A stretch of DNA of 35,648 bases from Kiritimatiellia bacterium (GTDB lineage: Bacteria > Verrucomicrobiota > Kiritimatiellia > SS1-B-03-39 > UBA6053), in NCBI GenBank assembly GCA_018401235.1, contig JAGYLC010000009.1:1-35648 (forward strand), written 5' to 3'. Position 1 is the first letter of the stretch; each line of letters opens with the position of its first letter. Shown piece after piece: positions 1 through 24,926 of this stretch. Made by a program: the position numbers and the translations under genes. The notes beneath the pieces were generated by a model that was not told the DNA's origin, ran no database searches, and saw only the letters and a list, made by a program, of their open reading frames with translations.

Positions 1-2411
1 TCAAGGCCGTATTAGACGCCCTCGATCTCCCTTCCCCGCCTCCCCGCTTCACCGTGGGCATCACTGACGATGTCACCCGCCTCAGCCTGACCACTGGCCC
101 GGACCTGCATCTCGAACCCGACTCCCGCACCCGCGCCCTGTTTTACGGACTCGGCTCCGACGGCACCGTCGGCGCCAACAAAAGCACTGTCAAGATCCTC
201 AGTCGCCTTCCGGGCATGCACGCCCAGGTATATTTCGTCTACGACTCCAACAAATCCGGTTCCCGCACCGTCTCCCATCTCCGCTTCGGCCCCGACCCCA
301 TTCGCGCGCCTTATCTCATCGAATCCGCCAACTTCATCGCCTGCCATTCTTTTGCCTTTGTCCGGCAAATCGACATTCTCGAACGGGCCGCTCCCGGAGC
401 TGTCCTGCTGCTCAACAGCCCCCATCCCCCGGACCGCATTCTCCAACAACTCCCCTCCGAACTGCTGGAAAAAATCCAAGACCTCGATCTCTCCCTTTAC
501 GTGATCGACGCCTCCCGGGCAGCCCGCGAAAGCGGACTGGGCGGGCGCATCAACACCATCATGCAAACCTGTTTTTTCGCGCTGAGTTCCGTGCTCCCCC
601 GCGACCGGGCCCTGGACGCCATCCGCGACTCCATCCGCGAAACCTACGGACACAAAGGCCAACAGGTGGTGAACCAAAACCTGGCCGCCGTCGATACCGC
701 CCTCGATTGCTTACATGCGGTGCCCCTCTCCGGAGAGCCGCTTTCCGGGATTCCCCGGCCCCCCGCCGTTCCCGACCACGCCCCCGAATTCGTGCGCGAT
801 GTCACCGCCAAACTGCTGCGGGATCAGGGGGATCTTCTACCCGTCAGCGCCATGCCCATCGACGGTACCTGGCCGGTGGACACCGCCCGCTGGAACCAGC
901 GCGATCTCTCCCCCCTCGCCCCGGTGTGGGAACCCGACCTCTGCATTCAATGCGGACATTGCGTGGTGATCTGCCCCCACGGAGTCATCCAAGTCAAACA
1001 AGCCGCCTCCGAAGACCTTAAAAATGCCCCGCCCGATTTCCCCGCTCCCGCCCTGCGCGGGCAATCCGAGGAGAATCGACACTACCTCCTGCAACTCAAT
1101 CTCCCCAACTGCACCGGCTGCGGACTCTGCGTCGAAATCTGCCCCGCCCGCAGCAAAACCCAATCCAATCTCAAAGCCCTGCATCAAGAGGAGAAAGCTC
1201 CCCGACTCGATCGCGAGGAAGTCCATCTCGACTTTTTCCGTCAGGTCCCCGCCCAACAGGAGCAAACCCAGTCCCGCACCCTCCGCGGCGTACAATTTCT
1301 ACCCCAGCGCTTTGAATTTCCCGGCGCCTGCGCCGGCTGTGGCGAAACCGCCGCCCTCAAACTCGTCAGCCAACTCTTCGGAGACCGCATGTTGGTGGCC
1401 AACGCCACCGGCTGTTCCTCCATCTTTGGCGGCAACCTCCCCACCACCCCCTGGACCGTAGACGCAAACGGACGCGGTCCGGCCTGGGCCAATTCCCTCT
1501 TCGAAGACAATGCCGAATTCGGCTACGGATTCCGCCTCTCCGCCGACCTCAAACGTCAACAAGCCCACGACCTGCTCCGCGAGTTGTCCGGCCACGGAGT
1601 GGCCCCCGACCTCGTCGAATCTTTGCTCACCGCACCTCAAGAGATCCCCTCCGAAATCGAGGCCCAGCGACAGCGCCTGCAGGAACTCGATCAGCAACTG
1701 ACCCGACTGGACACAGACGACCCGCGCGTGCCCCGCCTGCGCAGCGTGGTCGACAGCCTGATTGACCGCTCCGTGTGGATCGTCGGCGGCGACGGCTGGG
1801 CCTGCGACATCGGATTCGGCGGACTCGACCACGTCCTGGCCGGCGGACGCAACCTCAACATTTTAGTACTCGACACCGAAGTCTATTCCAACACTGGCGG
1901 ACAAGCCTCCAAATCCACCCCCCTGGGTGCCATCGCCAAATTCGCCACCGGAGGAAAGCTCACCGCCAAAACCGATCTCGCCCTGCACGGAATGCTCAAA
2001 GGCAACGTCTACGTCGGCACCATCGCCCTCGGCGCCAAACTCCCCCAGGCCCTGCGCACCCTTCAGGAAGCCGAAGCCTGGCCCGGCCCCTCGCTGGTTC
2101 TCTCCTACAGCCCCTGCATCGCCCACGGCTATCCCCTGCAGCACTCCCTCGAACAACAGCACAACGCAGTGCAAAGCGGACATTGGCCCCTCCTCCGCTA
2201 CAACCCCGCCCTCCGCCAACAAGGCAAATCCCCCCTCACCCTCGACAGCCCCGTCGAACCCGTCCTCGCCCTCAAAACCTACCTCTACAACGAACTTCGC
2301 TACAACCTCCTCCACCTCACCAACCCCGACACCGCCGCCGATCTCCTCCACCAAGCCGAAACCCACATCAAAGAGCGCATGCGAATGTTACAGGCACTGG
2401 GGGAGATTTGA
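1..2411 (+). CDS. nifJ: Pyruvate:ferredoxin (flavodoxin) oxidoreductase, C-terminal part (5' end outside window)
   Basis: Oxidatively decarboxylates pyruvate to acetyl-CoA and CO2 in the cytoplasm, passing electrons to ferredoxin or flavodoxin. The frame is open from the first bases, so the N-terminal pyruvate-binding domain lies upstream; about 800 residues are visible. In order: the segment FTVGITDDVTRLSL; the domain with FYGLGSDGTVGANKS; a two-cluster ferredoxin domain with CIQCGHCVVICPH and CTGCGLCVEICP; then the thiamine-diphosphate domain with ACAGCGETAALKL, ATGCSSIFGG and GGDGWACDIGFGGLDH, ending with VYSNTGGQASKSTPLGA. This is the domain order of single-chain bacterial PFOR. Codons end overwhelmingly in C or G. 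A sufU gene follows after a 120-nt gap; PFOR needs several Fe-S clusters, so the proximity makes sense but does not prove a link. Family assignment is secure. Confidence 0.95.
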   Translation, partial: KAVLDALDLPSPPPRFTVGITDDVTRLSLTTGPDLHLEPDSRTRALFYGLGSDGTVGANKSTVKILSRLPGMHAQVYFVYDSNKSGSRTVSHLRFGPDPIRAPYLIESANFIACHSFAFVRQIDILERAAPGAVLLLNSPHPPDRILQQLPSELLEKIQDLDLSLYVIDASRAARESGLGGRINTIMQTCFFALSSVLPRDRALDAIRDSIRETYGHKGQQVVNQNLAAVDTALDCLHAVPLSGEPLSGIPRPPAVPDHAPEFVRDVTAKLLRDQGDLLPVSAMPIDGTWPVDTARWNQRDLSPLAPVWEPDLCIQCGHCVVICPHGVIQVKQAASEDLKNAPPDFPAPALRGQSEENRHYLLQLNLPNCTGCGLCVEICPARSKTQSNLKALHQEEKAPRLDREEVHLDFFRQVPAQQEQTQSRTLRGVQFLPQRFEFPGACAGCGETAALKLVSQLFGDRMLVANATGCSSIFGGNLPTTPWTVDANGRGPAWANSLFEDNAEFGYGFRLSADLKRQQAHDLLRELSGHGVAPDLVESLLTAPQEIPSEIEAQRQRLQELDQQLTRLDTDDPRVPRLRSVVDSLIDRSVWIVGGDGWACDIGFGGLDHVLAGGRNLNILVLDTEVYSNTGGQASKSTPLGAIAKFATGGKLTAKTDLALHGMLKGNVYVGTIALGAKLPQALRTLQEAEAWPGPSLVLSYSPCIAHGYPLQHSLEQQHNAVQSGHWPLLRYNPALRQQGKSPLTLDSPVEPVLALKTYLYNELRYNLLHLTNPDTAADLLHQAETHIKERMRMLQALGEI

Positions 2412-8194: not shown

Positions 8195-8586
8195 ACCCCG
8201 AACCGCTCATTCTGTTCGATGGTCCCTGCAACTTCTGCCAGAAGTCCGTGCGCTTTATCCTTCGCCACGAAAAATCCCCCGACCTTCGTTTTGCATCACT
8301 AGAATCCGACATCGGAAAGACCCTGCGGGAGGCACACCACATTCCTTCCGAAAACGACAGTATGATTCTGATTCATGATGGCCAGGCCTTTACCGGCTCC
8401 GATGCGGCGATACGAGCCTGTGCGTTTCTTCGTCCCCCCTGGAGTTGGTTACATAGCTTTCGGCATCTTCCCGCATTCCTGCACGCTCCGGTCTACCGTT
8501 GGATCGCCCGCAATCGGTATCGATGGTTCGGCAAGGACGAATCCTGTCCCCTCCCCGATCCTGATCAATCGGAACGGTTTTTATAG
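8191..8586 (+). CDS. DCC-family thiol-disulfide oxidoreductase (DUF393)
   Basis: 131 residues. The family signature is at the N-terminus: LILFDGPCNFCQKSVRFIL, a CxxC pair in a thioredoxin-like fold, followed by LRFASLESDIGK and the typical late stretch AFLRPPWSWLHSFRHLPAFL. Members are predicted to exchange disulfides; no specific partner is known here. Coupled by ATGA to the small membrane protein upstream. It ends 6 nt inside the convergent tsaB. Confidence 0.85.
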   Translation: MNPEPLILFDGPCNFCQKSVRFILRHEKSPDLRFASLESDIGKTLREAHHIPSENDSMILIHDGQAFTGSDAAIRACAFLRPPWSWLHSFRHLPAFLHAPVYRWIARNRYRWFGKDESCPLPDPDQSERFL

Positions 8587-9174
8587 AGAGTTGACCGCCG
8601 GATGTAGATAGCAGGGGGCCAACTCCTCCGGGGCTGATTCTTCCGGGAAGTTAAGCAAATCGAGGGCCTTCGGATAATCCAACACCACAGAATCAAGATC
8701 AGGACGGAGCCTCTCCGCTTCCGGCGAAAACACCTTCAGCCCCCGCACGTCCGCCAGCCAGTCGGCAGGGGCTTGTAGTCGCCAGTCCGCCTGCATCGTG
8801 GGGAATCGGGTACCCCACCACTGACCTCTCCGCGCATCTCCGAGGATGGCAATCTCCTCCGCTCCCCCCTCGTCAAGCAATCGTCTAGCCTGCGCCCGGC
8901 CCGACGAAAGTGCGATCAGGCGAATGCCACCCGGCGCGGAAAACCCGATCGCCCAGGAAAGCGCCTGACGAACCCCGGTATAATTTCCGGGACCGCGGCC
9001 AATCCGGATCTCTGTCACTTCCTTCAGAAGATCACCGCAATCTTCCAACAACGATAAAGCCTCCGTGACCCGGAAGCGGGAGGCTTCGATCACCCGCTCC
9101 TCAAATTCCCTATTCCGGCCCCAAGCCACGCTGAGTCGGCGGCTGCTCCATTCCATTGCCAGTATCCTAGACAT
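8581..9174 (-). CDS. tsaB: tRNA threonylcarbamoyladenosine biosynthesis protein TsaB
   Basis: 197 residues. TsaB pairs with TsaD and TsaE to make the t6A37 modification on ANN-decoding tRNAs. The N-terminal actin-like fold motif appears as ILAMEWSSRRLSVAWG, where the usual Asp-Thr-Ser is replaced by Glu-Trp-Ser, and the conserved loop as GRGPGNYTGVRQALSWAIG. ATG 9174 fits the family N-terminus; ATG 9183 is an alternative. It overlaps the end of tsaE and is last in a four-gene leftward operon. tsaD and tsaC are not in the window. Confidence 0.86.
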   Translation of the reverse strand: MSRILAMEWSSRRLSVAWGRNREFEERVIEASRFRVTEALSLLEDCGDLLKEVTEIRIGRGPGNYTGVRQALSWAIGFSAPGGIRLIALSSGRAQARRLLDEGGAEEIAILGDARRGQWWGTRFPTMQADWRLQAPADWLADVRGLKVFSPEAERLRPDLDSVVLDYPKALDLLNFPEESAPEELAPCYLHPAVNSL

Positions 9175-9607
9175 GATGCGCATCTTCTCCCTGCCACAGT
9201 CGGATGTGACGTTGGTTTTGCTGATCGGGAGAGCCCGTCAATTCAATCTTCCATGCGTCCCGGGGCCAGAAATCCGGCACCCGTTCACTCCATTCCACCG
9301 CCACAATGGCCTTTCCCTCCAACCAGTCCTCCAGTCCCAAATCCCAAATCTGCTCCGGGTCTGTCAACCGATATAAATCTACATGCACCAGGGGCGGAAC
9401 CGTTTCGTATTCCTGCACCAACCCGTAGGTAGGACTGTTTACAGATCCTGTCCACCCAAGGCCTTCGGCCATACCCTGCACAAAGCAAGTCTTACCCGCC
9501 CCCAGATCGCCAAAAAGTCGGACAACCGAACCTGGTGTCAACGTATGTGCAAGCTCTTCTCCGATGCGGCGGGTTTCCTCGGGGGATACGCTTTGTCGGG
9601 TCTTCAT
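9167..9607 (-). CDS. tsaE: tRNA threonylcarbamoyladenosine biosynthesis ATPase TsaE
   Basis: 146 residues. A P-loop ATPase required for turnover of the TsaBDE complex. Walker A is LFGDLGAGKTCFVQG (about residues 31-45), followed by the diagnostic NSPTYGLVQEY, VHVDLYRL and the late VEWSERVPDFWP. The length is typical. Its ATG overlaps the stop of the CPBP protease gene (ATGA), and its 3' end overlaps tsaB, so the t6A pair is co-translated behind a membrane protease and a glycosyltransferase. Confidence 0.95.
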   Translation of the reverse strand: MKTRQSVSPEETRRIGEELAHTLTPGSVVRLFGDLGAGKTCFVQGMAEGLGWTGSVNSPTYGLVQEYETVPPLVHVDLYRLTDPEQIWDLGLEDWLEGKAIVAVEWSERVPDFWPRDAWKIELTGSPDQQNQRHIRLWQGEDAHHV

Positions 9608-10443
9608 ATTCCGATCCCCTCCACCCCTTCCACCAAAGTATACACCAAGGTCATTGAATTAAAAAAAGCATGTGCCCACACGCAAGTCATCAGCCGGCGT
9701 GTATAAATGTAACTCAATCCGAGCAGAATGGCCAAACTGAACAGTGCCAGCAGGCTGGCGGCATGTTGATGAATCAAAGCAAAAATCGCGGCTTGAAGAA
9801 ATAATCCGGGAAGGACTCCGGTTTTTTGAACCAGCCAGGGGAACAATACGCCCCGAAAAATAAATTCTTCAAGCAGAGGGCCAATAAAGCCAATCAGTAA
9901 AAAAAGCGAGAGCCAGTTCAACCAACCGCTCAATTCCGAGAGTTCTTGAATCATCGGCTGTAGGGTCAGTTCAATATTCAGGGAACTAAACAACGCCTTA
10001 GTGAACAGGCTGGATAACACCACTAACGGCAGTGCCATGCAATACGCCATCAATCCCCAAATCGCGTCCCGGATATGAAGGGGAGATTCCAACCCCAGTA
10101 CTTCAAGGATATTTAATCCCACTGCTTGAAGGTGCACAAACAGAATCAGAGAAAAGAGACCCTGAAACACCGCGATTGAAATCAGGATCACCACCCCCAC
10201 CGGTAAGACATCCATCCGAGGGTACATCCACAGGCCAACTCCGATTTGCAATACAAAGGTCAGAAGAAAGCCCCACAAGAAGGATTTCGAGAGATCGTGG
10301 GGGAGAGGCCGCCACTTCAGCCATCCCCATCCATTGCTCCATGCAATGCCGGCAGCCGGGGAAAACAGCAGGGAAACCCAGAAGCATACTCCACTTAAGA
10401 GCAGCACTCCCATCAGCACGTCCAACCGGATCCACTCAAGCAT
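9604..10443 (-). CDS. CPBP-family intramembrane metalloprotease (CAAX/Abi-type)
   Basis: About 279 residues, mostly hydrophobic with seven or eight membrane segments. The three motifs of the family are present: EEFIFRG (about residue 192), FALIHQH (about 221) and HAFFNS (about 258), supplying the Glu and His residues of the active site. In bacteria the role is variable, including membrane-protein cleavage and bacteriocin immunity. ATG 10443 is preferred over a TTG two codons upstream; it then starts 2 nt after the glycosyltransferase stop. The gene ends in an ATGA overlap with tsaE. Confidence 0.9.
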   Translation of the reverse strand: MLEWIRLDVLMGVLLLSGVCFWVSLLFSPAAGIAWSNGWGWLKWRPLPHDLSKSFLWGFLLTFVLQIGVGLWMYPRMDVLPVGVVILISIAVFQGLFSLILFVHLQAVGLNILEVLGLESPLHIRDAIWGLMAYCMALPLVVLSSLFTKALFSSLNIELTLQPMIQELSELSGWLNWLSLFLLIGFIGPLLEEFIFRGVLFPWLVQKTGVLPGLFLQAAIFALIHQHAASLLALFSLAILLGLSYIYTRRLMTCVWAHAFFNSMTLVYTLVEGVEGIGI

Positions 10444-10445
10444 GA

Positions 10446-11435
10446 TCAATCTTCCAGACGATCCGATGAGGCCGGCACGTCCTCACGAATCGAATACGTG
10501 CGTTTATTTTGAGATTCATGATACGTACGAATCATCATCTCGGACAGCAATCCCAGACCAATGAACTGAATACCGAATCCTACCAGCATAAAACCCATGA
10601 TCGGCCAGACCGGGCGCTTCACCAGATCGTAACCGACGAATTCCACCCCGAACAAAGTTGCGACCAAGTTCAAGCCGAAAATCATGGCCAACAGCAGCAC
10701 CCCCAAAAATCCCAACTGAAATCCTATTTTCCCCAGAATTTGCATGGGGCCGGTACTATAGCGAAGCAGGAATTTCACCGTGATCAAATCCAACACAACC
10801 CTCAAGGTCCGTCCGATCCCGTATTTACTGGTCCCGAATTGGCGGGGATGATGATTGACCGGCACTTCAACAACATTTCCGCCCACCCAATGCGCCAGAG
10901 CCGGAATAAAGCGATGCATTTCCCCGTACAGGCGCACATCCTTGATCACTTCCTTGCGATACGCCTTCAACGTACAGCCATAGTCATGAAGATGGACACC
11001 CGTGATCCGACTGATCAAGCCATTCGCCAACATCGAGGGCAATTTACGGTTAATAAAGCGATCTTTTCGATTTTTGCGCCACCCGCTCACCACATCGACA
11101 TCATCCGACATTGCCTCCAGCAAAAGCGGGATATCCTTCGGATCATTCTGCAAATCCGCATCCATGGTGATAATAGTTTGCCCCTGCGCATAATCCAACC
11201 CCGCAGCCATCGCGGCCGTCTGGCCAAAATTCCGTCGAAACCGAATCAAATGCAAAAACGGGTACTTCTTCCGATTTTCCACCAGCTTTTCCCACGTCCG
11301 GTCACTACTCCCATCATCCACCAGCACTGCTTCATAACTCAAGGACAACGACTCCAGCGCCTCCCAAAGCTTCTCACAAAGCAAATCCACGCTCTCCTCT
11401 TCGTTATACACCGGAATGACAATAGATATATCCAT
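10446..11435 (-). CDS. Family 2 glycosyltransferase (DPM1/GtrB-like, membrane-anchored)
   Basis: 329 residues. The GT-A domain begins ISIVIPVYNEEESV and contains VLVDDGSSDRTWE, RRNFGQTAAMAAGLDYAQG and the metal-binding MDADLQNDPKDIP, the pattern of polyprenyl-phosphate sugar transferases such as dolichol-phosphate mannose synthase, GtrB and ArnC. Two C-terminal membrane helices follow (about residues 235-260 and 275-305), ending in a basic tail. It probably transfers a sugar from a nucleotide donor to undecaprenyl phosphate at the inner membrane. It is the first gene of the leftward operon with CPBP, tsaE and tsaB. Confidence 0.92.
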   Translation of the reverse strand: MDISIVIPVYNEEESVDLLCEKLWEALESLSLSYEAVLVDDGSSDRTWEKLVENRKKYPFLHLIRFRRNFGQTAAMAAGLDYAQGQTIITMDADLQNDPKDIPLLLEAMSDDVDVVSGWRKNRKDRFINRKLPSMLANGLISRITGVHLHDYGCTLKAYRKEVIKDVRLYGEMHRFIPALAHWVGGNVVEVPVNHHPRQFGTSKYGIGRTLRVVLDLITVKFLLRYSTGPMQILGKIGFQLGFLGVLLLAMIFGLNLVATLFGVEFVGYDLVKRPVWPIMGFMLVGFGIQFIGLGLLSEMMIRTYHESQNKRTYSIREDVPASSDRLED

Positions 11436-18182: not shown

Positions 18183-19454
18183 ATGTCCTTGACCATGATG
18201 ATCGCACTAATTGTGCTGGGCGGCTGGTTTTCCGGTCGGCTCTTTGACCGCCTGCATCTGCCCGCCGTGTTGGGAATGCTATTGTGCGGCCTGCTTCTTG
18301 GCGGAGCACTGGGAGAAGACGCCTGGCCCACCGCGTTGGTGGAGATGAAACCTTTCCTGAAAACCTTCGCCCTAGTGGTGATTCTGCTCCGGGCCGGACT
18401 GGGCATTCGACGTCGGGTGCTGCATCAGGTGGGCGGAACCGCTCTGGCCATGGCCCTCCTGCCCTGTCTGCTGGAGGGAACGGTGCTGACTCTTCTGCTT
18501 CATCACTTCTGGCAGTTCTCCTTGCCAGTGGCGGGTCTCACCGGGTTTATGCTGGCCGCGGTGTCCCCGGCGGTGGTGGTTCCGGCGATGCTGACACTGG
18601 CGGAAAAGGGATACGGGCGAAGCAACCAGGTCCCCACCTTAGTGCTGGCGGGCGCTTCGGTGGACGATGTATTCGCGATCATCTTGTTTTCCCTGTTTAC
18701 CCGAATGGCCCTCCGTGGAGATCACTCATGGACGGCGCTTTTGTGGGACCTACCAAAATCCATACTGCTGGGAATCATTCCGGGTATTCTGCTGGGGTTG
18801 CTGCTGGCCTGGGGTTTTCATCGGTACTACAGCCGGATTCGCGCAACCGAAAAAACTCTCGTCCTAGTCATGCTTTCCTTGGTGCTGGTGCATCTGGGCG
18901 ATGTCCTGCACAGTGCCGCGTTGCTGGGTGTGATGACGGTAGGGTTCCTGCTGCTTGAGCGGGCCGAACGCGTTGCCCACGAACTGGCAGCCAAACTCTC
19001 CAAAATTTGGGTCTTCGCGGAAATCATGCTGTTTGTCCTCATCGGCATGCAGGTTGATCCCCGTCTGGCCCTGTCCGCCGGGCCCGCCGCTGCCAGTATT
19101 GTATTCGCCGGTCTGCTCGCCCGCTCGATTGGAGTGTGGATCGCCACCTGGAGATCGTCTCTGACCTCGCATGAGCGTCTGTTCTGTGTGCTCGCCTATT
19201 TGCCCAAGGCCACAGTGCAGGCCGCCCTCGGCGGAGTTCCGCTCGCACTGGGGGTTCCGGGTGGCGAACACATTCTCGCTCTGGCCGTGCTCTCCATCCT
19301 CTTCACCGCCCCGCTCGGCCTCATCTCTATCCGCCTGGCGGGTCCCCGGCTGCTGGAGCAGGAAAATTCCTCACTTCCGCCGATGGGATCTCTTACCGAT
19401 CCATCCATAACGACGGAATATCAGCATCATGGTCAGTCCAGAACCAATCATTAA
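18183..19454 (+). CDS. Cation:proton antiporter (CPA family, Na+/H+ exchanger domain)
   Basis: 423 residues, about 12 membrane segments. The fold and motifs fit the Na_H_Exchanger domain: LHLPAVLGMLLCGLLLGG in the first helices, FALVVILLRAGLGI, VSPAVVVPAML, and GASVDDVFAIILFS, whose paired Asp residues correspond to the ion-binding helix. There is no TrkA-N or other cytoplasmic regulatory domain; a 40-residue polar tail follows the last helix. Ion specificity cannot be told. The last 84 nt overlap the convergent corA, so the tail is encoded opposite the corA C-terminus. Confidence 0.86.
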   Translation: MSLTMMIALIVLGGWFSGRLFDRLHLPAVLGMLLCGLLLGGALGEDAWPTALVEMKPFLKTFALVVILLRAGLGIRRRVLHQVGGTALAMALLPCLLEGTVLTLLLHHFWQFSLPVAGLTGFMLAAVSPAVVVPAMLTLAEKGYGRSNQVPTLVLAGASVDDVFAIILFSLFTRMALRGDHSWTALLWDLPKSILLGIIPGILLGLLLAWGFHRYYSRIRATEKTLVLVMLSLVLVHLGDVLHSAALLGVMTVGFLLLERAERVAHELAAKLSKIWVFAEIMLFVLIGMQVDPRLALSAGPAAASIVFAGLLARSIGVWIATWRSSLTSHERLFCVLAYLPKATVQAALGGVPLALGVPGGEHILALAVLSILFTAPLGLISIRLAGPRLLEQENSSLPPMGSLTDPSITTEYQHHGQSRTNH

Positions 19455-20495
19455 CGCCCAAGCAAACAAATAGCCGTATTTCCAGTATAACTCGGGCATA
19501 TTCCACCCACTGATATCCGGATCGAAATTCATGCCATACACCCCGGCAATAAAGGTGATCGGGATAAAAATCGTGGAAATGATGGTCAACACTTTCATCA
19601 CTTCATTTAATTGATTTCCACTGATCGACCGCTGCAAATCAAAGAGGGATGTACTGATTTCCCGTAAATGGTCCGCGCGGGCCAGGGCACGCATCGCGTG
19701 GTCCTGCACATCCCGGAAATAAGGAAGCGTATCCGCCGCCAACCATGATTGCTCCAGCTTCATCAGTTGATCCGGCACCAGAGACTGATTCCAGAAGATG
19801 CGGCGCAGGATCATCACTTCCCTCCGCAACGCATGAATTTCGTTCACACAGGAGGCACCCTCCCCGTCCAGTAACCGCTCTTCCAAAAGTTCGGATCGCT
19901 CATCGAAGGCCTCAAGTATCGGAAACGCGATATCCACCAGCATATCCATCGCCACATAAAACAGATAATCGACCCGACTTTGAATCATGCGGGGTGCCCC
20001 TTTTTTAAAGCGTTCCCATATGGGGGCCAATTTGGAAGCGGAGTCCACCTGCAGCGTTACCAGAAAGCCCTGTCCCAGATAGAGCGATACCTGTTCAAAC
20101 CCCAGTTGGTCCTCCACCAAATGCGGAACCTGCAGCACCGTGAATTGCATGTCCTCATACGAGGTGGTTCCCGGATGTTGACGCAAATTCATCCCGTCTT
20201 CCAGTGCCAGCCGGTGCAATCGGAACAACTGCCCCACTTCCGAAATCAGTTCGGCATCCCCCAGCCCATTCACATCCAGCCACAACCACTGATTTTCCCC
20301 AAGGGAATTTTTTAGCGAACGCAAGGTATCCAGCGAGATATTTTCATGCGGGGCCCAATTACCATCCCCGGATATTAACACATCCAGCCGGGGCGGGGGA
20401 GACCCTTCCGGTGCCACCAACAAACCGGGAGCGGATCCGGGGGTTTGGTCTGATCGTTTGGCGGGTTTGGCCCGATGATCTAATGGGTTTTTCAT
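19371..20495 (-). CDS. corA: Magnesium/cobalt transport protein CorA
   Basis: 374 residues. A large N-terminal cytoplasmic domain with NQWLWLDVNGLGD and LHRLALEDGMNLRQHPG (the conserved helical-sandwich motif), a long helix with YLFYVAMDMLVDIAFP, and two C-terminal membrane helices separated by the signature GVYGMNFD (the GMN loop), followed by a short basic tail. It forms a pentameric Mg2+ channel. The start overlaps the stop of the upstream TIM-barrel gene (ATGA). The N-terminus has a 40-residue charged extension beyond most relatives. Confidence 0.93.
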   Translation of the reverse strand: MKNPLDHRAKPAKRSDQTPGSAPGLLVAPEGSPPPRLDVLISGDGNWAPHENISLDTLRSLKNSLGENQWLWLDVNGLGDAELISEVGQLFRLHRLALEDGMNLRQHPGTTSYEDMQFTVLQVPHLVEDQLGFEQVSLYLGQGFLVTLQVDSASKLAPIWERFKKGAPRMIQSRVDYLFYVAMDMLVDIAFPILEAFDERSELLEERLLDGEGASCVNEIHALRREVMILRRIFWNQSLVPDQLMKLEQSWLAADTLPYFRDVQDHAMRALARADHLREISTSLFDLQRSISGNQLNEVMKVLTIISTIFIPITFIAGVYGMNFDPDISGWNMPELYWKYGYLFAWALMIGSGLTMMLIFRRYGWIGKRSHRRK

Positions 20496-21280
20496 GTATG
20501 AGTATAGGTGTGTACCAGATCATGCAACACCCTTGCATCCCGATGATAATTTTCGAGCACGTCATCCTTAGCGAATTCCAAGAGGGCCCAACGGGGCTTT
20601 GGATCCTCCGCCAGGATTTGAAAATACCGCATCCACCGCTCTTTACCCTCGGAAAGCAGATATCGATCCGCCCCGCCGCCTTCCCCCCAATGAAACACAT
20701 GCACATTGGACACCCGGGGAAGAATACGGAGTAAACTTTTTTCACAGACGTCCTCCGGTTGACCGTTGGGGGGCTGCCAAAGACTGTCCAGGTTTTCCAG
20801 AGGAAGCGCCTCCAGCAGGTCTACGGCGGACTCGATATCGTCGGTCAGGGTATTTCCATGATATTCAAACGCAATACGAATGGACCGTTTCGCCGCCAAT
20901 TTGCAGATTCGCTCGGTATCTTCAATCACCACTTGACGGTCCTGTAAACTCGCTCTGGCAGAGCCCTTGTTTCCAGCCCACACCCGTACCACGGGGGTGC
21001 CCAGAGCCTCGGCCGAATCCAGCACCGCCTCGATTTCCGGCGACTTCTCCGCGGGCCCGACCCGATAATAGGATCCGTAAGCCGCCGATTCCAGTCCCGC
21101 GTCCCGGGTCCAGCGCGCCACCTGTTCCGCGACTTTTACGTTTCCGTGCGGCACATGCACGTCTCCTCCCCACTCCAGCCCCTGTTGTCCGGCTTTCACC
21201 ACCTCTTCAATAAGTTCAGGGGCGGAATGTTTCCGAAAACTAATCGATACCAAGCCGGTTTTGAGTGTGGATTTTTCCAT
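20492..21280 (-). CDS. Sugar phosphate isomerase/epimerase (xylose isomerase-like TIM barrel)
   Basis: 262 residues from ATG 21280, just 1 nt past the SDR stop. The AP_endonuc_2/xylose-isomerase-like barrel is shown by TGLVSISFRKHSAPELIEE, GLEWGGDVHVPHGN, VVRVWAGNKGS, IRIAFEYHGNTLTDD with a metal-ligand Glu, and VHVFHWGEGG, with ALLEFAKDD near the end. The substrate is unknown, but with an SDR immediately upstream the pair may act on a sugar or inositol derivative. Co-transcribed with corA downstream, an unusual partner. Confidence 0.85.
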   Translation of the reverse strand: MEKSTLKTGLVSISFRKHSAPELIEEVVKAGQQGLEWGGDVHVPHGNVKVAEQVARWTRDAGLESAAYGSYYRVGPAEKSPEIEAVLDSAEALGTPVVRVWAGNKGSARASLQDRQVVIEDTERICKLAAKRSIRIAFEYHGNTLTDDIESAVDLLEALPLENLDSLWQPPNGQPEDVCEKSLLRILPRVSNVHVFHWGEGGGADRYLLSEGKERWMRYFQILAEDPKPRWALLEFAKDDVLENYHRDARVLHDLVHTYTHT

Positions 21281-21281
21281 C

Positions 21282-22061
21282 TTACTGAGCAATGTAGCCC
21301 CCATCCACATTAATGACCTGACCCGTCACAAACGATGACGCATCCGAACAGAGCCACAACACCGCCTCCGCCACATCGTCCGGTTCCGCCACCCGCCCCA
21401 TCGGATGCCGCTTTTTAATCTGTTCAAACGTCTCAGCAGAATCGTGCATGGTTCGCCAGAGCATGTCGGTGTTCACCGCCCCCGGAGCTACCGCATTCAC
21501 ACGGATCTTGTGTTGCGCCTCTTCCAATGAGGCGGTTTTGGTCAATCCAAACACCGCATGCTTGGCCGCCACATAGGGTGCCAGCAGCGGCATACCCACT
21601 TCGCCCAACACGGAGGCTATGTTCACAATGTTTCCTCCGCCACTCGCGCGCAGGGCGGGAATCGCATGTTTGAGAATGAGAAAGGTCCCCATCAGATTCA
21701 CGTTCATTACCTGTTGAAAATCCTCCTGTGTAATGTCGGTCACCGCGTGGGGGTCGGCTTCCAGCCCTGCATTGTTCACCACAAAGTCCAACCGACCATG
21801 ACGATCCACGGTTTGGCTGATGCAGGCCTTCACCGCCGCCTCGTCGGTCACGTCGCTCTGCACATATTCCACCTTCAAGCCCTGCTTCCGGAGGTCCTTG
21901 GCCTGATCCTCGCCCAATTCGGAGCGTCGTCCGGAATAACAGACCAAGGCACCGCTTCTCGCCAGGGCCGACACGATCGCCTTGCCAATGCCAGACGTAC
22001 CACCGGTCACCAGTGCCACTTTGCCGTTGAATAAATAAGGATTGGTTCCGGGTGGATGCAT
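21282..22061 (-). CDS. SDR-family NAD(P)-dependent oxidoreductase
   Basis: 259 residues. Classical short-chain dehydrogenase: cofactor motif VTGGTSGIGKAI, NNAGLEADP, catalytic Ser in NIASVLGEVG, catalytic Tyr-Lys in YVAAKHAVFGLTK, and the ending VTGQVINVDGGY as in FabG-like and sugar dehydrogenases. GGAG stands 6 nt before ATG 22061. First gene of a leftward set with the TIM-barrel isomerase and corA. The exact substrate is unknown. Confidence 0.93.
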   Translation of the reverse strand: MHPPGTNPYLFNGKVALVTGGTSGIGKAIVSALARSGALVCYSGRRSELGEDQAKDLRKQGLKVEYVQSDVTDEAAVKACISQTVDRHGRLDFVVNNAGLEADPHAVTDITQEDFQQVMNVNLMGTFLILKHAIPALRASGGGNIVNIASVLGEVGMPLLAPYVAAKHAVFGLTKTASLEEAQHKIRVNAVAPGAVNTDMLWRTMHDSAETFEQIKKRHPMGRVAEPDDVAEAVLWLCSDASSFVTGQVINVDGGYIAQ

Positions 22062-22185: not shown

Positions 22186-22231
22186 TCCTGTCGATCGCTA
22201 CAGGAGGATCATGCCCCCTCCATCGACAGGA
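22186..22231 (-). terminator. Hairpin after the B12-controlled operon
   Basis: TCCTGTCGAT (22186-22195) and ATCGACAGGA (22222-22231) pair perfectly over 10 bp, with a nested GGAGG/CCTCC stem inside. It begins 9 nt past the stop of the prepilin gene. There is no long T-run, but its position suits transcription ending or mRNA 3'-end protection. Confidence 0.5.
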
Positions 22232-22240
22232 TCGGTCTCA

Positions 22241-23002
22241 CTACTCCCGCTCTCTGGAGGGGTTCCAGTAGCCATTCTGCTCGGTGGGGCCGAACCAGCC
22301 GATGCGCTGTTCCTGATTTTTTCCGCCATAGTAATTGGGGCCAGTCTGGTTGTTGGGGGATTCCAGACTGACATGACCATCCAGCCAGGCGACCAACGCC
22401 TTTCCGTTCGCACGGAAATGGGTGCTGGGCTGAAGTGAATGCCCGTCCCGACTTTGATAGGGGTCGCTGAAGGGATATTCCATGATCCCGTTGGCAGTGG
22501 CGAAGGCGGTGGTGGCGAAAAATACGGTTTGTGAAGGTTGGGGAAGTCGGGTGTAGTCTACGGGACGATGCTGCCCCCCGCTCCAGATTCCACCGAGATT
22601 GGTGGAATTATAGCCATAGCCCCCGGAACCGATTTCGAAGCTGCGTACATTCGAAATACGATCAAGCAAGGGACAACGGTTCACCTGCCCCGTATGTCCT
22701 AAATAGGGCGACAAATATCCCCCTTCCGGTTCGAACGGAGCCGAGATGGAGGTGCGGGCTCCATGCCAGCGGACGCGGTTATTCACACTCGCTCCTGGAG
22801 GCAAAGCCCCGTTATGGTCCACCGCATAGGCAACCCCCGCCAGTGCCAACTGACGCAGATTACTGCGGGAGGCCGCCGTTCGCGCCCGCTCCAGAGCAGA
22901 CCCCACTCCGGTGGCGGTGAGAGTGGCCAACAATCCGATGATGCTGATCACCACCAACATCTCGATCAGCGTAAACCCGGGTTTATGGTTTTCGGTGCGC
23001 AT
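22241..23002 (-). CDS. Prepilin-type N-terminal methylation domain protein (pseudopilin-like)
   Basis: 253 residues. A short basic leader, then the type IV prepilin site PGFTLIEMLVVISIIGLLAT, with cleavage after Gly, Phe +1 and Glu +5. The C-terminal domain contains RTAASRSNLRQLALAGVAYA and the late KALVAWLDGHVSLE, the pattern of the large PVC pseudopilin group related to the DUF1559/H-X9-DG proteins. It is translated from an ATG 20 nt inside the end of the upstream PEP-CTERM gene, so it is the third gene under the cobalamin riboswitch. Its role there is unknown; structural or adhesion roles at the envelope are possible. Confidence 0.87.
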   Translation of the reverse strand: MRTENHKPGFTLIEMLVVISIIGLLATLTATGVGSALERARTAASRSNLRQLALAGVAYAVDHNGALPPGASVNNRVRWHGARTSISAPFEPEGGYLSPYLGHTGQVNRCPLLDRISNVRSFEIGSGGYGYNSTNLGGIWSGGQHRPVDYTRLPQPSQTVFFATTAFATANGIMEYPFSDPYQSRDGHSLQPSTHFRANGKALVAWLDGHVSLESPNNQTGPNYYGGKNQEQRIGWFGPTEQNGYWNPSRERE

Positions 23003-23756
23003 GGCGAATCACCAGTCCCAGTCCTACAAACAGGAGGAAGAGCACCGAAGGTTCCGGGATGGCGTTTATCACTCCGATGGCATCCAAATCAAAACCCCCG
23101 GTCTCGAAATCCGTTTTCCAGGGATCATTGATGATGTTTCCCTGCGAATCGTCGCGTGCATAGTCGGGATCAATGCTGCCAACCACATCGATGATTTTCA
23201 CGTGGGTGACGGCATTCACATTCAATCCGGAAGTGCCCGCTAGCTCCTCCAAGTCAAACAGCGTCCCGTACCCGGCCAAATCCTTTCCGGCCAGATTCGT
23301 GATATCCGCGGGATTTATGGAGCCGGACACCCATTCCACCTGGGTATCCGCTTGGGTGAGGGAAATCGAGTCAAAGCGATGAAACGCGATACCGTCGGAA
23401 CTCACTTCCACAAATGCCAATTCATACCAGCCCTCAAAAGAATTTGAAAAAACCGCGAAGTCCGCGCCGGGACCATTGGCGATAGGGTTGGCAAAGGTCA
23501 ATACAATCGATCCTCCATCCCCGAGACTGACCACCGGGTGCGATCCTCCATCCGCCCCGGCGGGACCGAGCACATCATTTGGATCCCCGAACGAGGCATC
23601 GCCTTTGGACGGATCCGAAATATCCATGGGGCCGCGTATCAGGTCCTGATAGCCGGTGACCCAGCCCACAATGGACGGATCTGTGGCCGATATGGGGCTG
23701 GCGGTCAATGACTGGCCAATCCAGATTAGCAAAAAAAGTAGTAGAAGACGATTCAT
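22983..23756 (-). CDS. PEP-CTERM surface protein, 'cell surface protein' type
   Basis: 257 residues. Signal peptide LLLLFLLIWIGQSLTA; a beta-rich middle with VSLGDGGSIVLTFANPIANG, GADFAVFSNSFEGWYELAFV and a late VTHVKIIDVVGS; and a C-terminal sorting signal AIPEPSVLFLLFVGLGLVI then RHAHRK (Pro-Glu-Pro, hydrophobic helix, basic end). An exosortase elsewhere should process it. The middle resembles, from memory, the 'cell surface protein' that accompanies DUF4465 genes in Bacteroidetes corrinoid loci. Its ATG overlaps the stop of the DUF4465 gene (ATGA), and it overlaps the prepilin gene at its end. Confidence 0.85.
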   Translation of the reverse strand: MNRLLLLFLLIWIGQSLTASPISATDPSIVGWVTGYQDLIRGPMDISDPSKGDASFGDPNDVLGPAGADGGSHPVVSLGDGGSIVLTFANPIANGPGADFAVFSNSFEGWYELAFVEVSSDGIAFHRFDSISLTQADTQVEWVSGSINPADITNLAGKDLAGYGTLFDLEELAGTSGLNVNAVTHVKIIDVVGSIDPDYARDDSQGNIINDPWKTDFETGGFDLDAIGVINAIPEPSVLFLLFVGLGLVIRHAHRKP

Positions 23757-24592
23757 CGCTGCACTCCTTGCTGCTTCACGACCCAGCGACGGCCGATGAA
23801 TAGGAGGAATGCACCCAATAGCATCGTGACCAGGGTCCCGGGTTCAGGAATCGCCCCCAGATTATCCAGCGCGAAGTAGGCGGGGGTATTCATGCCAAAG
23901 TCCCCATTATCCGATGAACTGAGTTCGAAGGACAGGCTATCCACCGTTCCCAGAGAACTGAGATTCACAAAGGTCCAGTCATCGACAATATAGTTCTGCG
24001 AATTATCCGTAAATCGGTAATCGGCGAGGTAAAAATCGACCATGCCGGTTGTGGATCCGCCGTTCGCGCCGGTGATGCTGAGCTTGAACCAGTCGGAATC
24101 ATCGCCGGATTCACCCCCGAATTGCTTGGAGAAATCGGAACCGTTCACCATGTCAAGCGCCGCATAGGTGGTGTTGGTTACGAACAGCCCTTTGCCAACA
24201 CTGAAATCGAAGGGGGTGGCGTAGGTGATCGTGTTGCTTTTATAGCTGATGGCGTAGGTATCAGAGCCTCCCGCGCCCGATCCGGGATAGGCGCTGTATT
24301 GGTTGCCAAACCCGGCGGTGGTGGTGTCGGTGGTGTTCGAGTAGGCGAATCCCTCCCAACTGGTAACACCCCCACCCCAATCCGTAAAGCTGTTTGGGAA
24401 GGTGACATCATTAACGGTGAAGTCGCCGGATCCATTAGACCCGTTCCAATAATAGGTCCCACTGCCGTTATATTCCGTGGAGCCATCTCCGATTTCACCC
24501 AGAGATCGGCTTTCGAAGGTCACAGGCGAGGCCCACAGTGACCCGATTATCGTCAGTGCAAGCGAGGTTGCACGTACTGTCAATTTCGTCAT
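23753..24592 (-). CDS. DUF4465 protein with PEP-CTERM anchor, behind a cobalamin riboswitch
   Basis: 279 residues from ATG 24592, chosen for the tandem AAGGA upstream and for the signal peptide (VRATSLALTIIGSLWA) that follows; longer frames run back through the riboswitch and are not real. The DUF4465 pattern is clear: TSWEGFAYSNTTDTTTAG, NQYSAYPGSGAGGSDTYA, GLFVTNTTYAALDMVNG, KQFGGESGDDSDWFKL, VDFYLADYRF, and GDFGMNTPAYFALDNLGA, then PEPGTLVTMLLGAFLLF and a basic end as sorting signal. In Bacteroidetes DUF4465 genes are found beside BtuB and BtuG, and I recall corrinoid binding for that group (BtuH); this is memory, not a search. Surface B12 binding is the best guess. Confidence 0.88.
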   Translation of the reverse strand: MTKLTVRATSLALTIIGSLWASPVTFESRSLGEIGDGSTEYNGSGTYYWNGSNGSGDFTVNDVTFPNSFTDWGGGVTSWEGFAYSNTTDTTTAGFGNQYSAYPGSGAGGSDTYAISYKSNTITYATPFDFSVGKGLFVTNTTYAALDMVNGSDFSKQFGGESGDDSDWFKLSITGANGGSTTGMVDFYLADYRFTDNSQNYIVDDWTFVNLSSLGTVDSLSFELSSSDNGDFGMNTPAYFALDNLGAIPEPGTLVTMLLGAFLLFIGRRWVVKQQGVQR

Positions 24593-24659
24593 GTTCCTTT
24601 TCCTTAGTCCCTTTTCGCGGGGACACAGAGTTAAAGTGGCATTCTCGAGGAACACCTGG

Positions 24660-24815
24660 GGATCTCCATCACGTCTTCTGGCTACCCGGCTTGTCCTTCT
24701 TTCCCCCTTCCACCCGATGCGGGCGTGGATATGGAAAAGTCGTATCCGGTTACAGTGGCGCGACCGCGGCTGAATTTCACAGCCTTCCGTTTGACGGAGG
24801 TCCTTGCAGCGAATG
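24660..24815 (-). promoter_or_regulatory. Cobalamin (B12) riboswitch
   Basis: On the minus strand the conserved core reads GTGAAATTC (24780-24772), then GCCGCGGTCG (24770-24761) and CGCCACTGTAACCGG (24760-24746), the best conserved block of the class. Upstream, CCTCCGT and ACGGAAGG pair as a stem. Downstream, TCCAC (24729-24725) pairs with GTGGA (24713-24709), followed by AAGG, and the B12-box-like AGCCAGAAGAC lies at 24683-24673. A possible expression stem, GTCCC (24624-24620) with GGGAC (24611-24607), ends just before the ribosome binding site, suggesting translational control. I did not find a convincing closing P1 stem. Confidence 0.88.
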
Positions 24816-24926
24816 TCGCCGTTTTGCCTATAAAGAAGAGTTGAACTTCCTACAAGAAAAAAATGTGCTAAATCGTACCCACGACATCTTATTTGCTTTG
24901 TGAAAACACCTTTTAACAAATTTTAA

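Follow-up and report, generated by a model that had tools for sequence, protein, structure and literature searches.

Most microbial communities trade vitamin B12 as a nutrient, and its capture at the outer surface is known mainly from lipoproteins of gut Bacteroides. A 35,648-nucleotide (nt) stretch of contig JAGYLC010000009.1 from a Kiritimatiellia bacterium (GenBank assembly GCA_018401235.1; the whole stretch is referred to here as the window) carries a minus-strand operon in which three genes follow a cobalamin riboswitch: gene 1 encodes a DUF4465 protein, gene 2 another secreted protein and gene 3 a prepilin-like protein. Genes 1 and 2 overlap by 4 nt and genes 2 and 3 by 20 nt; these overlaps and the gene coordinates agree with the initial annotation, which was made from the sequence alone. 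The locus is probably an operon for cobamide capture that is repressed by B12 and includes a dedicated, system-specific pilin-like subunit, and the participation of this pilin family in B12 acquisition is well supported.

Linkage of a pilin family to cobalamin riboswitches

The riboswitch aptamer (24651..24828, minus strand) was identified using cmscan as a full-model match to RF00174 (61.8 bits, gathering score 31.5; E-value: 4e-13) and is the only such match in the host genome bin (2.49 Mb, 85% complete). As originally proposed, it stands directly before the DUF4465 gene, with the gene 1 start codon approximately 59 nt 3' of the aptamer end. This start is the ATG at 24592, which follows the ribosome-binding stretch AAGGAAAAGG, and the stop codon ends at 23753; a longer open reading frame with a TTG start would run into the riboswitch. 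Judging from the riboswitch class, the presence of cobalamin would repress the operon.

Gene 3 (22241..23002, minus strand) encodes a 253-amino acid (aa) protein whose earlier description as prepilin-like is borne out by the motif KPG/FTLIE and the conserved domain PF07963 (E-value: 2e-7). The G/FTLIE motif and hydrophobic helix are encoded at 22916..22978, and the structural model has an N-terminal helix at residues 12-62. The protein also scores above the cut-offs of TIGR02532 and PF07596 (DUF1559; 23.6 bits, cut-off 23.3) and below the GspG equivalog cut-off (35.1 bits versus 88.85). Its C-terminal domain (22244..22783) contains the motifs RWHG, GGYGYN, HFR..DGH and GWFGP. A whole-genome pilin search of nine genomes found 9-20 pilins in each. 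The B12-operon pilin was in all nine the best match and the only full-length match to gene 3, and nearly all of the other pilins match its N-terminal part only. By these comparisons, the C-terminal domain is specific to B12-linked operons. In a tree of 109 pilins, the gene 3 product belongs to a 55-row branch (Shimodaira-Hasegawa-like approximate likelihood ratio test [SH-aLRT]: 95) made up solely of pilins from B12- or BtuF-linked loci; the 27 other pilins all lie outside it. The DUF4465-only type and the divergent type form two more supported branches; this is a quick tree that does not establish a single origin for the three B12-pilin branches.

The same organization recurs in the class. 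Among 97 relative genomes, a profile restricted to the C-terminal domain (E-value threshold: 1e-10) gave 52 matches in 47 genomes, and a genome-wide riboswitch search, run separately on the same genomes, gave 102 matches above cut-off. For 41 of the 52 pilins, a same-strand riboswitch is located 1.1-3.9 kb upstream, where approximately 0.06 would be expected under independent positions; as related genomes are not independent, this count measures linkage and not 41 separate origins. Chance gene order was rejected on the basis of this linkage, since the order of riboswitch, secreted protein(s) and pilin recurs in dozens of genomes. At the 30 class loci with DUF4465 or protein 2 (the gene 2 product), a cobalamin-type riboswitch is found ahead in 26 and a pilin next door in 28; the flanking genes are not conserved. 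Nine pilin matches were in genomes where neither DUF4465 nor protein 2 was found, and as a check of the prediction, seven of these nine loci proved to consist of a riboswitch, another secreted gene (several PEP-CTERM) and the pilin. Ten weaker pilin matches are likewise in riboswitch operons, and most of these operons also contain a PEP-CTERM gene and a protein 2 gene of very divergent sequence. Among the riboswitches that lack a B12-type pilin, seven that are followed by a frame of 630-675 aa were tested, and all seven precede TonB receptors. In a further locus (L049), a TonB receptor gene sits between two riboswitches, ahead of a fused protein and the pilin.

The genes inserted between riboswitch and pilin are at L194:4698-5867, L195:4250-5386, L196:6023-7159, L199:5611-6552, L197:5556-6245, L192:5496-6449 and L193:4658-5620. 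Their products are secreted, several have PEP-CTERM tails and most are without a Pfam domain. These proteins are candidates for new cobamide-binding families, as the proposed reading of the operon predicts for secreted proteins in this position. In a genome of the same family as the host (L048:5690-7482, minus strand), the pilin gene overlaps a cobT-type phosphoribosyltransferase gene (PF02277, E-value: 4e-117) by 4 nt, which suggests remodelling of the lower ligand of captured cobamides by the same operon.

Outside the class, the pilin domain was found in 67 of 289 genomes of a phylum-wide survey (E-value threshold: 1e-25), and 20 outside-class loci were inspected. One of these (L230) repeats the whole gene order. 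Protein 2 is present in nine of the 20; eight that carry it are L231-L234, L236, L238, L240 and L241. An AdoCbl, AdoCbl-II or Cobalamin aptamer lies 31-130 nt before the pilin gene in L235, L245 and L248, with scores near the cut-offs. A BtuF-like gene is directly downstream of the pilin gene in L239, L243, L246 and L247; in extended loci, FecCD and ATP-binding cassette (ABC) ATPase genes follow the BtuF-like gene (L270, L271 and L273) or stand ahead (L277). Because the Peripla_BP_2 and FecCD families also serve iron and haem, these genes are referred to as btuFCD-like. Within the stretch examined, 13 of the 20 loci have neither a riboswitch nor a btuF-like gene, and a B12-box pattern sought in the outside-class loci did no better than on the opposite strand. 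Named relatives of the pilin are from Opitutaceae, Chthoniobacteraceae, Akkermansiaceae, two Planctomycetota and one Armatimonadota record.

The exported candidate binding proteins

Gene 1 (23753..24592, minus strand) encodes a BtuJ-like secreted protein of 279 aa with a signal-peptide-like N-terminus. This protein has the conserved domain PF14717 (DUF4465, the B12-binding domain, 23858..24361; E-value: 2.9e-55, 187.8 bits, cut-off 25). Its closest relative in the PDB is 9hmu (D5EK51 of Coraliomargarita akajimensis with B12; E-value: 1.1e-34), and other relatives are 9qpm (DUF4465) and 9fct (BtuJ1; E-value: 1e-24). A binding study published in 2026 (PMC13398666) demonstrates B12 binding for eight divergent DUF4465 proteins, including members from Coraliomargarita, Haloferula and Mucisphaera, presents tight B12 binding as the shared function of the family and describes conserved B12-contact tyrosines in two loops, HI (NTPAY) and DE. 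Protein 1 keeps both tyrosines, Tyr143 (NTTY, DE loop) and Tyr239 (NTPAYF, HI loop). The statement in the initial annotation that DUF4465 proteins of Bacteroidetes bind corrinoids agrees with this study and can be extended to Planctomycetota-Verrucomicrobiota-Chlamydiota (PVC) bacteria; DUF4465 as a B12-binding family, PVC members included, is already published. The initial annotation also proposed surface corrinoid capture by both secreted proteins. For protein 1 this role is well supported by the B12 binding shown for its family. According to the same study, over 70% of DUF4465 proteins are predicted lipoproteins and the remainder have periplasmic targeting signals; PEP-CTERM tails and pilins go unmentioned in the sections consulted.

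Gene 2 (22983..23756, minus strand) encodes a secreted protein of 257 aa. No family apart from PEP-CTERM was found for it in a Pfam scan, and a PDB sequence search with protein 2 alone gave no match. Its AlphaFold2 model (44 sequences) has a mean predicted local distance difference test (pLDDT) score of 89. When this model was compared with the PDB using Foldseek, only three matches had E-values of 0.001 or lower: 7biz_A and 7biz_B (BtuH2) and 8blw_B (BtuG1/GH), with a probability of 1.00, E-values of 3e-4 to 8e-4 and template modelling (TM) scores of approximately 0.4. A sequence profile of protein 2 matches the BtuH part of 8blw (residues 392-473 / 410-472; E-value: 0.003-0.006) and did not retrieve 7biz. 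At this TM score the protein is named BtuH-like and not BtuH.

Protein 2 adjoins DUF4465 or is fused to it. A genome scan with the single sequence found no relatives, an alignment-based scan found hundreds and a plasmid search found none; the protein is encoded in 22 of the 97 relative genomes. Seven fusions are known in the class (L049, L051, L053, L056, L059, L060 and L063). The DUF4465-protein 2 pair is also present in Planctomycetota and is common in Bacteroidota, where the two genes are adjacent in many loci and fused in L088, L106 and L115. The pair is thus not PVC-specific. Beta-propeller-type sequences (FG-GAP, weak SGL) stand ahead of protein 2 or are joined to it in several loci, recalling the BtuG-BtuH propeller fusion (PMC8941943). 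A search for BtuB, BtuC and BtuF at the protein 2 loci of other phyla found BtuB-like genes at 5 of 80, using one query each, which is too insensitive. In Bacteroidales, proteins of 1352-2236 aa have the protein 2 domain near their C-terminus (L102:2172-8882, L123:3009-9377 and L105:4824-8882). Protein 2 is likely a remote BtuH-like partner of DUF4465, and its DUF4465 fusions and modelled BtuH fold make a role in corrinoid capture likely. As an exported BtuH-like DUF4465 partner without a Pfam family, it is a new family member.

Both proteins have PEP-CTERM-type tails, as initially annotated, with scores near the cut-offs. The tail of protein 1 (23756..23851; PEPG, hydrophobic stretch and RRWVVK) is just under both (PF07589: 17.0 bits, cut-off 20.7; TIGR02595: 15.4 bits, cut-off 16). 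The tail of protein 2 (22986..23060) passes TIGR02595 (19.1 bits, cut-off 16), is below the Pfam cut-off of 20.7, also with 19.1 bits, and includes a terminal helix (residues 238-255) in the model. PEP-CTERM anchoring did not hold up as the defining trait of the system. Many homologues are fused or end differently, and it is the pilin that is constant in the PVC loci.

Proposed model and alternative explanations

The proposed model for the operon is as follows. Low intracellular cobalamin would allow expression through the riboswitch. Proteins 1 and 2 would be exported via Sec and held at or beyond the outer membrane by their exosortase-type tails, with protein 1 acting as a BtuJ-type cobamide binder and protein 2 as a probable partner that receives cobamide or passes it on. 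The pilin would be cleaved by prepilin peptidase and built into a pseudopilus of the type II secretion system (T2SS) or type IV pilus (T4P) type, most likely as a system-specific subunit that exports the binders or presents them at the outer membrane. Cobamide would then pass to a TonB receptor and a BtuFCD-type ABC importer, a handover that has been proposed for BtuJ, BtuH and BtuG in Bacteroides (PMC12751083, PMC8941943).

Some of the parts needed are encoded elsewhere in the host genome. The initial annotation noted neither a TonB receptor nor an exosortase in the window; this is true of the whole window contig, but the genome has two exosortase genes (PF09721; C242 and C201) and four TonB plug domains on other contigs. 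It also contains ten T2SSE-type ATPase matches and three B12-binding enzyme domains.

Several observations weigh against the model. The mRNA between the aptamer and the gene 1 start folds no more stably than shuffled sequences (z = -0.15), so that neither a terminator nor a helix masking the ribosome-binding site is claimed. The model of the pilin C-terminal domain is poor (pLDDT: 63) and no mechanism can be read from it. The match of protein 2 to BtuH is remote, with 13% identity at the TM score given above. No FecCD (BtuC) gene above cut-off was found in the 85%-complete bin, which is weak evidence of absence, and BtuF was among the best NCBIfam matches for three tested btuF-like genes at scores below the trusted one. 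These lineages also use dozens of pilins, one of them induced together with an alginate operon (PMC13274419), and assigning a pilin to a particular operon may be common practice there instead of a special feature of B12.

This last point leads to the possibility that the pilin is a generic hitchhiker, a secretion pseudopilin attached to many secreted-protein operons and with no role specific to B12. The 9-20 paralogues per genome are consistent with it, as is a Verrucomicrobiota isolate with 67 PulG-like copies, one pseudopilin of which is induced with an alginate operon (PMC13274419). The same example suggests that other substrates have specialised pilins of their own. The pilin types of B12 loci are recognisable and stay with B12 genes across classes while their partners change between DUF4465, protein 2, propellers and BtuF, and the main clade of 55 rows excludes the other pilins of the tree. 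A dedicated pseudopilin would in any case remain a functional component of the system. The hitchhiker reading is accordingly considered quite improbable. An adhesin or biofilm layer repressed by B12, in which DUF4465 serves attachment or storage instead of uptake, was also considered. Pilins can serve attachment, and PEP-CTERM proteins are typically tied to exopolysaccharide and biofilm. Against such a layer stand the genes linked to the pilin, which include btuFCD-like genes, a TonB receptor gene and cobT, and tight B12 binding as the shared DUF4465 function (PMC13398666); this reading is given hardly any credence.

Another explanation is that the pilin binds cobamides itself, as a surface-fibre subunit that captures B12 through its C-terminal domain, the secreted binders being accessory. 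The pilin is constant where its partners vary or are absent, it is the first gene after the aptamer in L235, L245 and L248, and B12 loci are the specific setting of its C-terminal domain. However, the GYGYN and HFRH..DGH motifs look general to DUF1559-type pilins and the C-terminal model is not confident. Corrin binding through additional aromatic residues gains no support from composition, as the aromatic content of the domain is hardly above that of other pilins (12.7% versus 11.9%). Direct binding by the pilin is thus regarded as unlikely. The preferred reading remains that of a capture operon with a system-specific pilin-like subunit, which may act by presenting the binders, secreting them or binding B12. 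It is tentatively suggested, with rather less confidence than the capture operon itself, that a dedicated riboswitch-controlled pilus or pseudopilus aids cobamide uptake in Verrucomicrobiota and related bacteria, the gene 3 subunit either capturing B12 or carrying the binders to the TonB/BtuFCD system.

Surface capture that feeds TonB and BtuFCD is a known principle. In the btuB-btuG-btuH-btuJ and btuFCD loci of Bacteroidota, riboswitch-controlled surface binders likewise feed a TonB receptor and an ABC importer, but those loci use a lipoprotein and vesicle route, whereas the window operon has a pilin and exosortase-type tails. Protein 1 resembles BtuJ1, BtuJ2 and D5EK51 in its PF14717 domain, both binding tyrosines, the B12 riboswitch ahead of the gene and export. 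The BtuJ proteins of B. theta are, however, lipoproteins encoded beside btuB and btuG, while protein 1 ends in a PEP-CTERM-type tail and shares its operon with a pilin. Protein 2 has a significant, if remote, fold match only to BtuH2 and the C-terminal BtuH domain of BtuG1(GH) and, like BtuH, is found with propellers and DUF4465. Protein 2 differs from BtuH2, a B12-binding lipoprotein whose conserved B12-contact residues include Tyr510, Trp511, Trp577 and His476, in being about half its size, without immunoglobulin domains or a shared Pfam family. Gene 3 shares the cleavage motif, helix, GYGYN and HFRH..DGH with the pseudopilins of T2SS and T4P (GspG/PulG, TIGR02532) and the DUF1559-type pilins of PVC bacteria, but is unlike them in its C-terminal domain confined to B12-linked loci, its co-regulation by a B12 riboswitch and its location outside a T2SS cluster. 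No paper linking a pilin to B12 operons was found in the open-access literature. This suggests that the regular presence of this pilin in B12 operons is previously undescribed there, with no counterpart in the known versions.

Throughout a phylum for which genetic tools are scarce, the pilin family is a standing B12-operon member, and the linkage gives a handle on the function of one of the many unexplained pilins in these bacteria. The role of substrate-specific pseudopilins becomes testable with a small, well-defined ligand. If the suggestion is correct, pilus-assisted cobamide uptake would be a micronutrient uptake system not known before, and a B12 route unlike the textbook one.

Surrounding genes and related loci

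Directly after the gene 3 stop codon is an inverted repeat, CCTGTCGAT...ATCGACAGG (22187..22230, minus strand), found by sequence inspection. It has no U tract and is a possible operon end. A separate set of overlapping genes begins 180 nt downstream of the operon (19371-22061, minus strand) and encodes a short-chain dehydrogenase/reductase (SDR) oxidoreductase, a sugar-isomerase-type triose-phosphate isomerase (TIM) barrel protein and a CorA magnesium/cobalt transporter. The idea that the riboswitch serves these genes was rejected on account of the 180-nt gap and their absence from beside the operon in the inspected relatives. At the start of the window (54-2411, plus strand) is a partial pyruvate:ferredoxin oxidoreductase gene (POR, EKR and 4Fe-4S domains), which suggests that the host is anaerobic or fermentative.

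Within one family of the class, an ECF-type sigma factor is encoded next to the B12 pilin operon (L070, L071 and L075), and a protein of approximately 200 aa without known function is encoded beside it in L070, L071, L074 and L075. These neighbours are at L070:10936-12140, L071:10646-11868, L074:66-620 and L075:10365-11584. In L198, a strong cobalamin riboswitch (8251-8430, plus strand; 90 bits) precedes an 815-aa frame (8435-10879, plus strand) encoding an aminotransferase fused with a CobB/CobQ-type amidotransferase, and a B12-type pilin gene is divergent nearby. A fluoride riboswitch (RF01734; L059:15123-15189) shares its contig with a B12 pilin operon and lies approximately 6 kb downstream of it.

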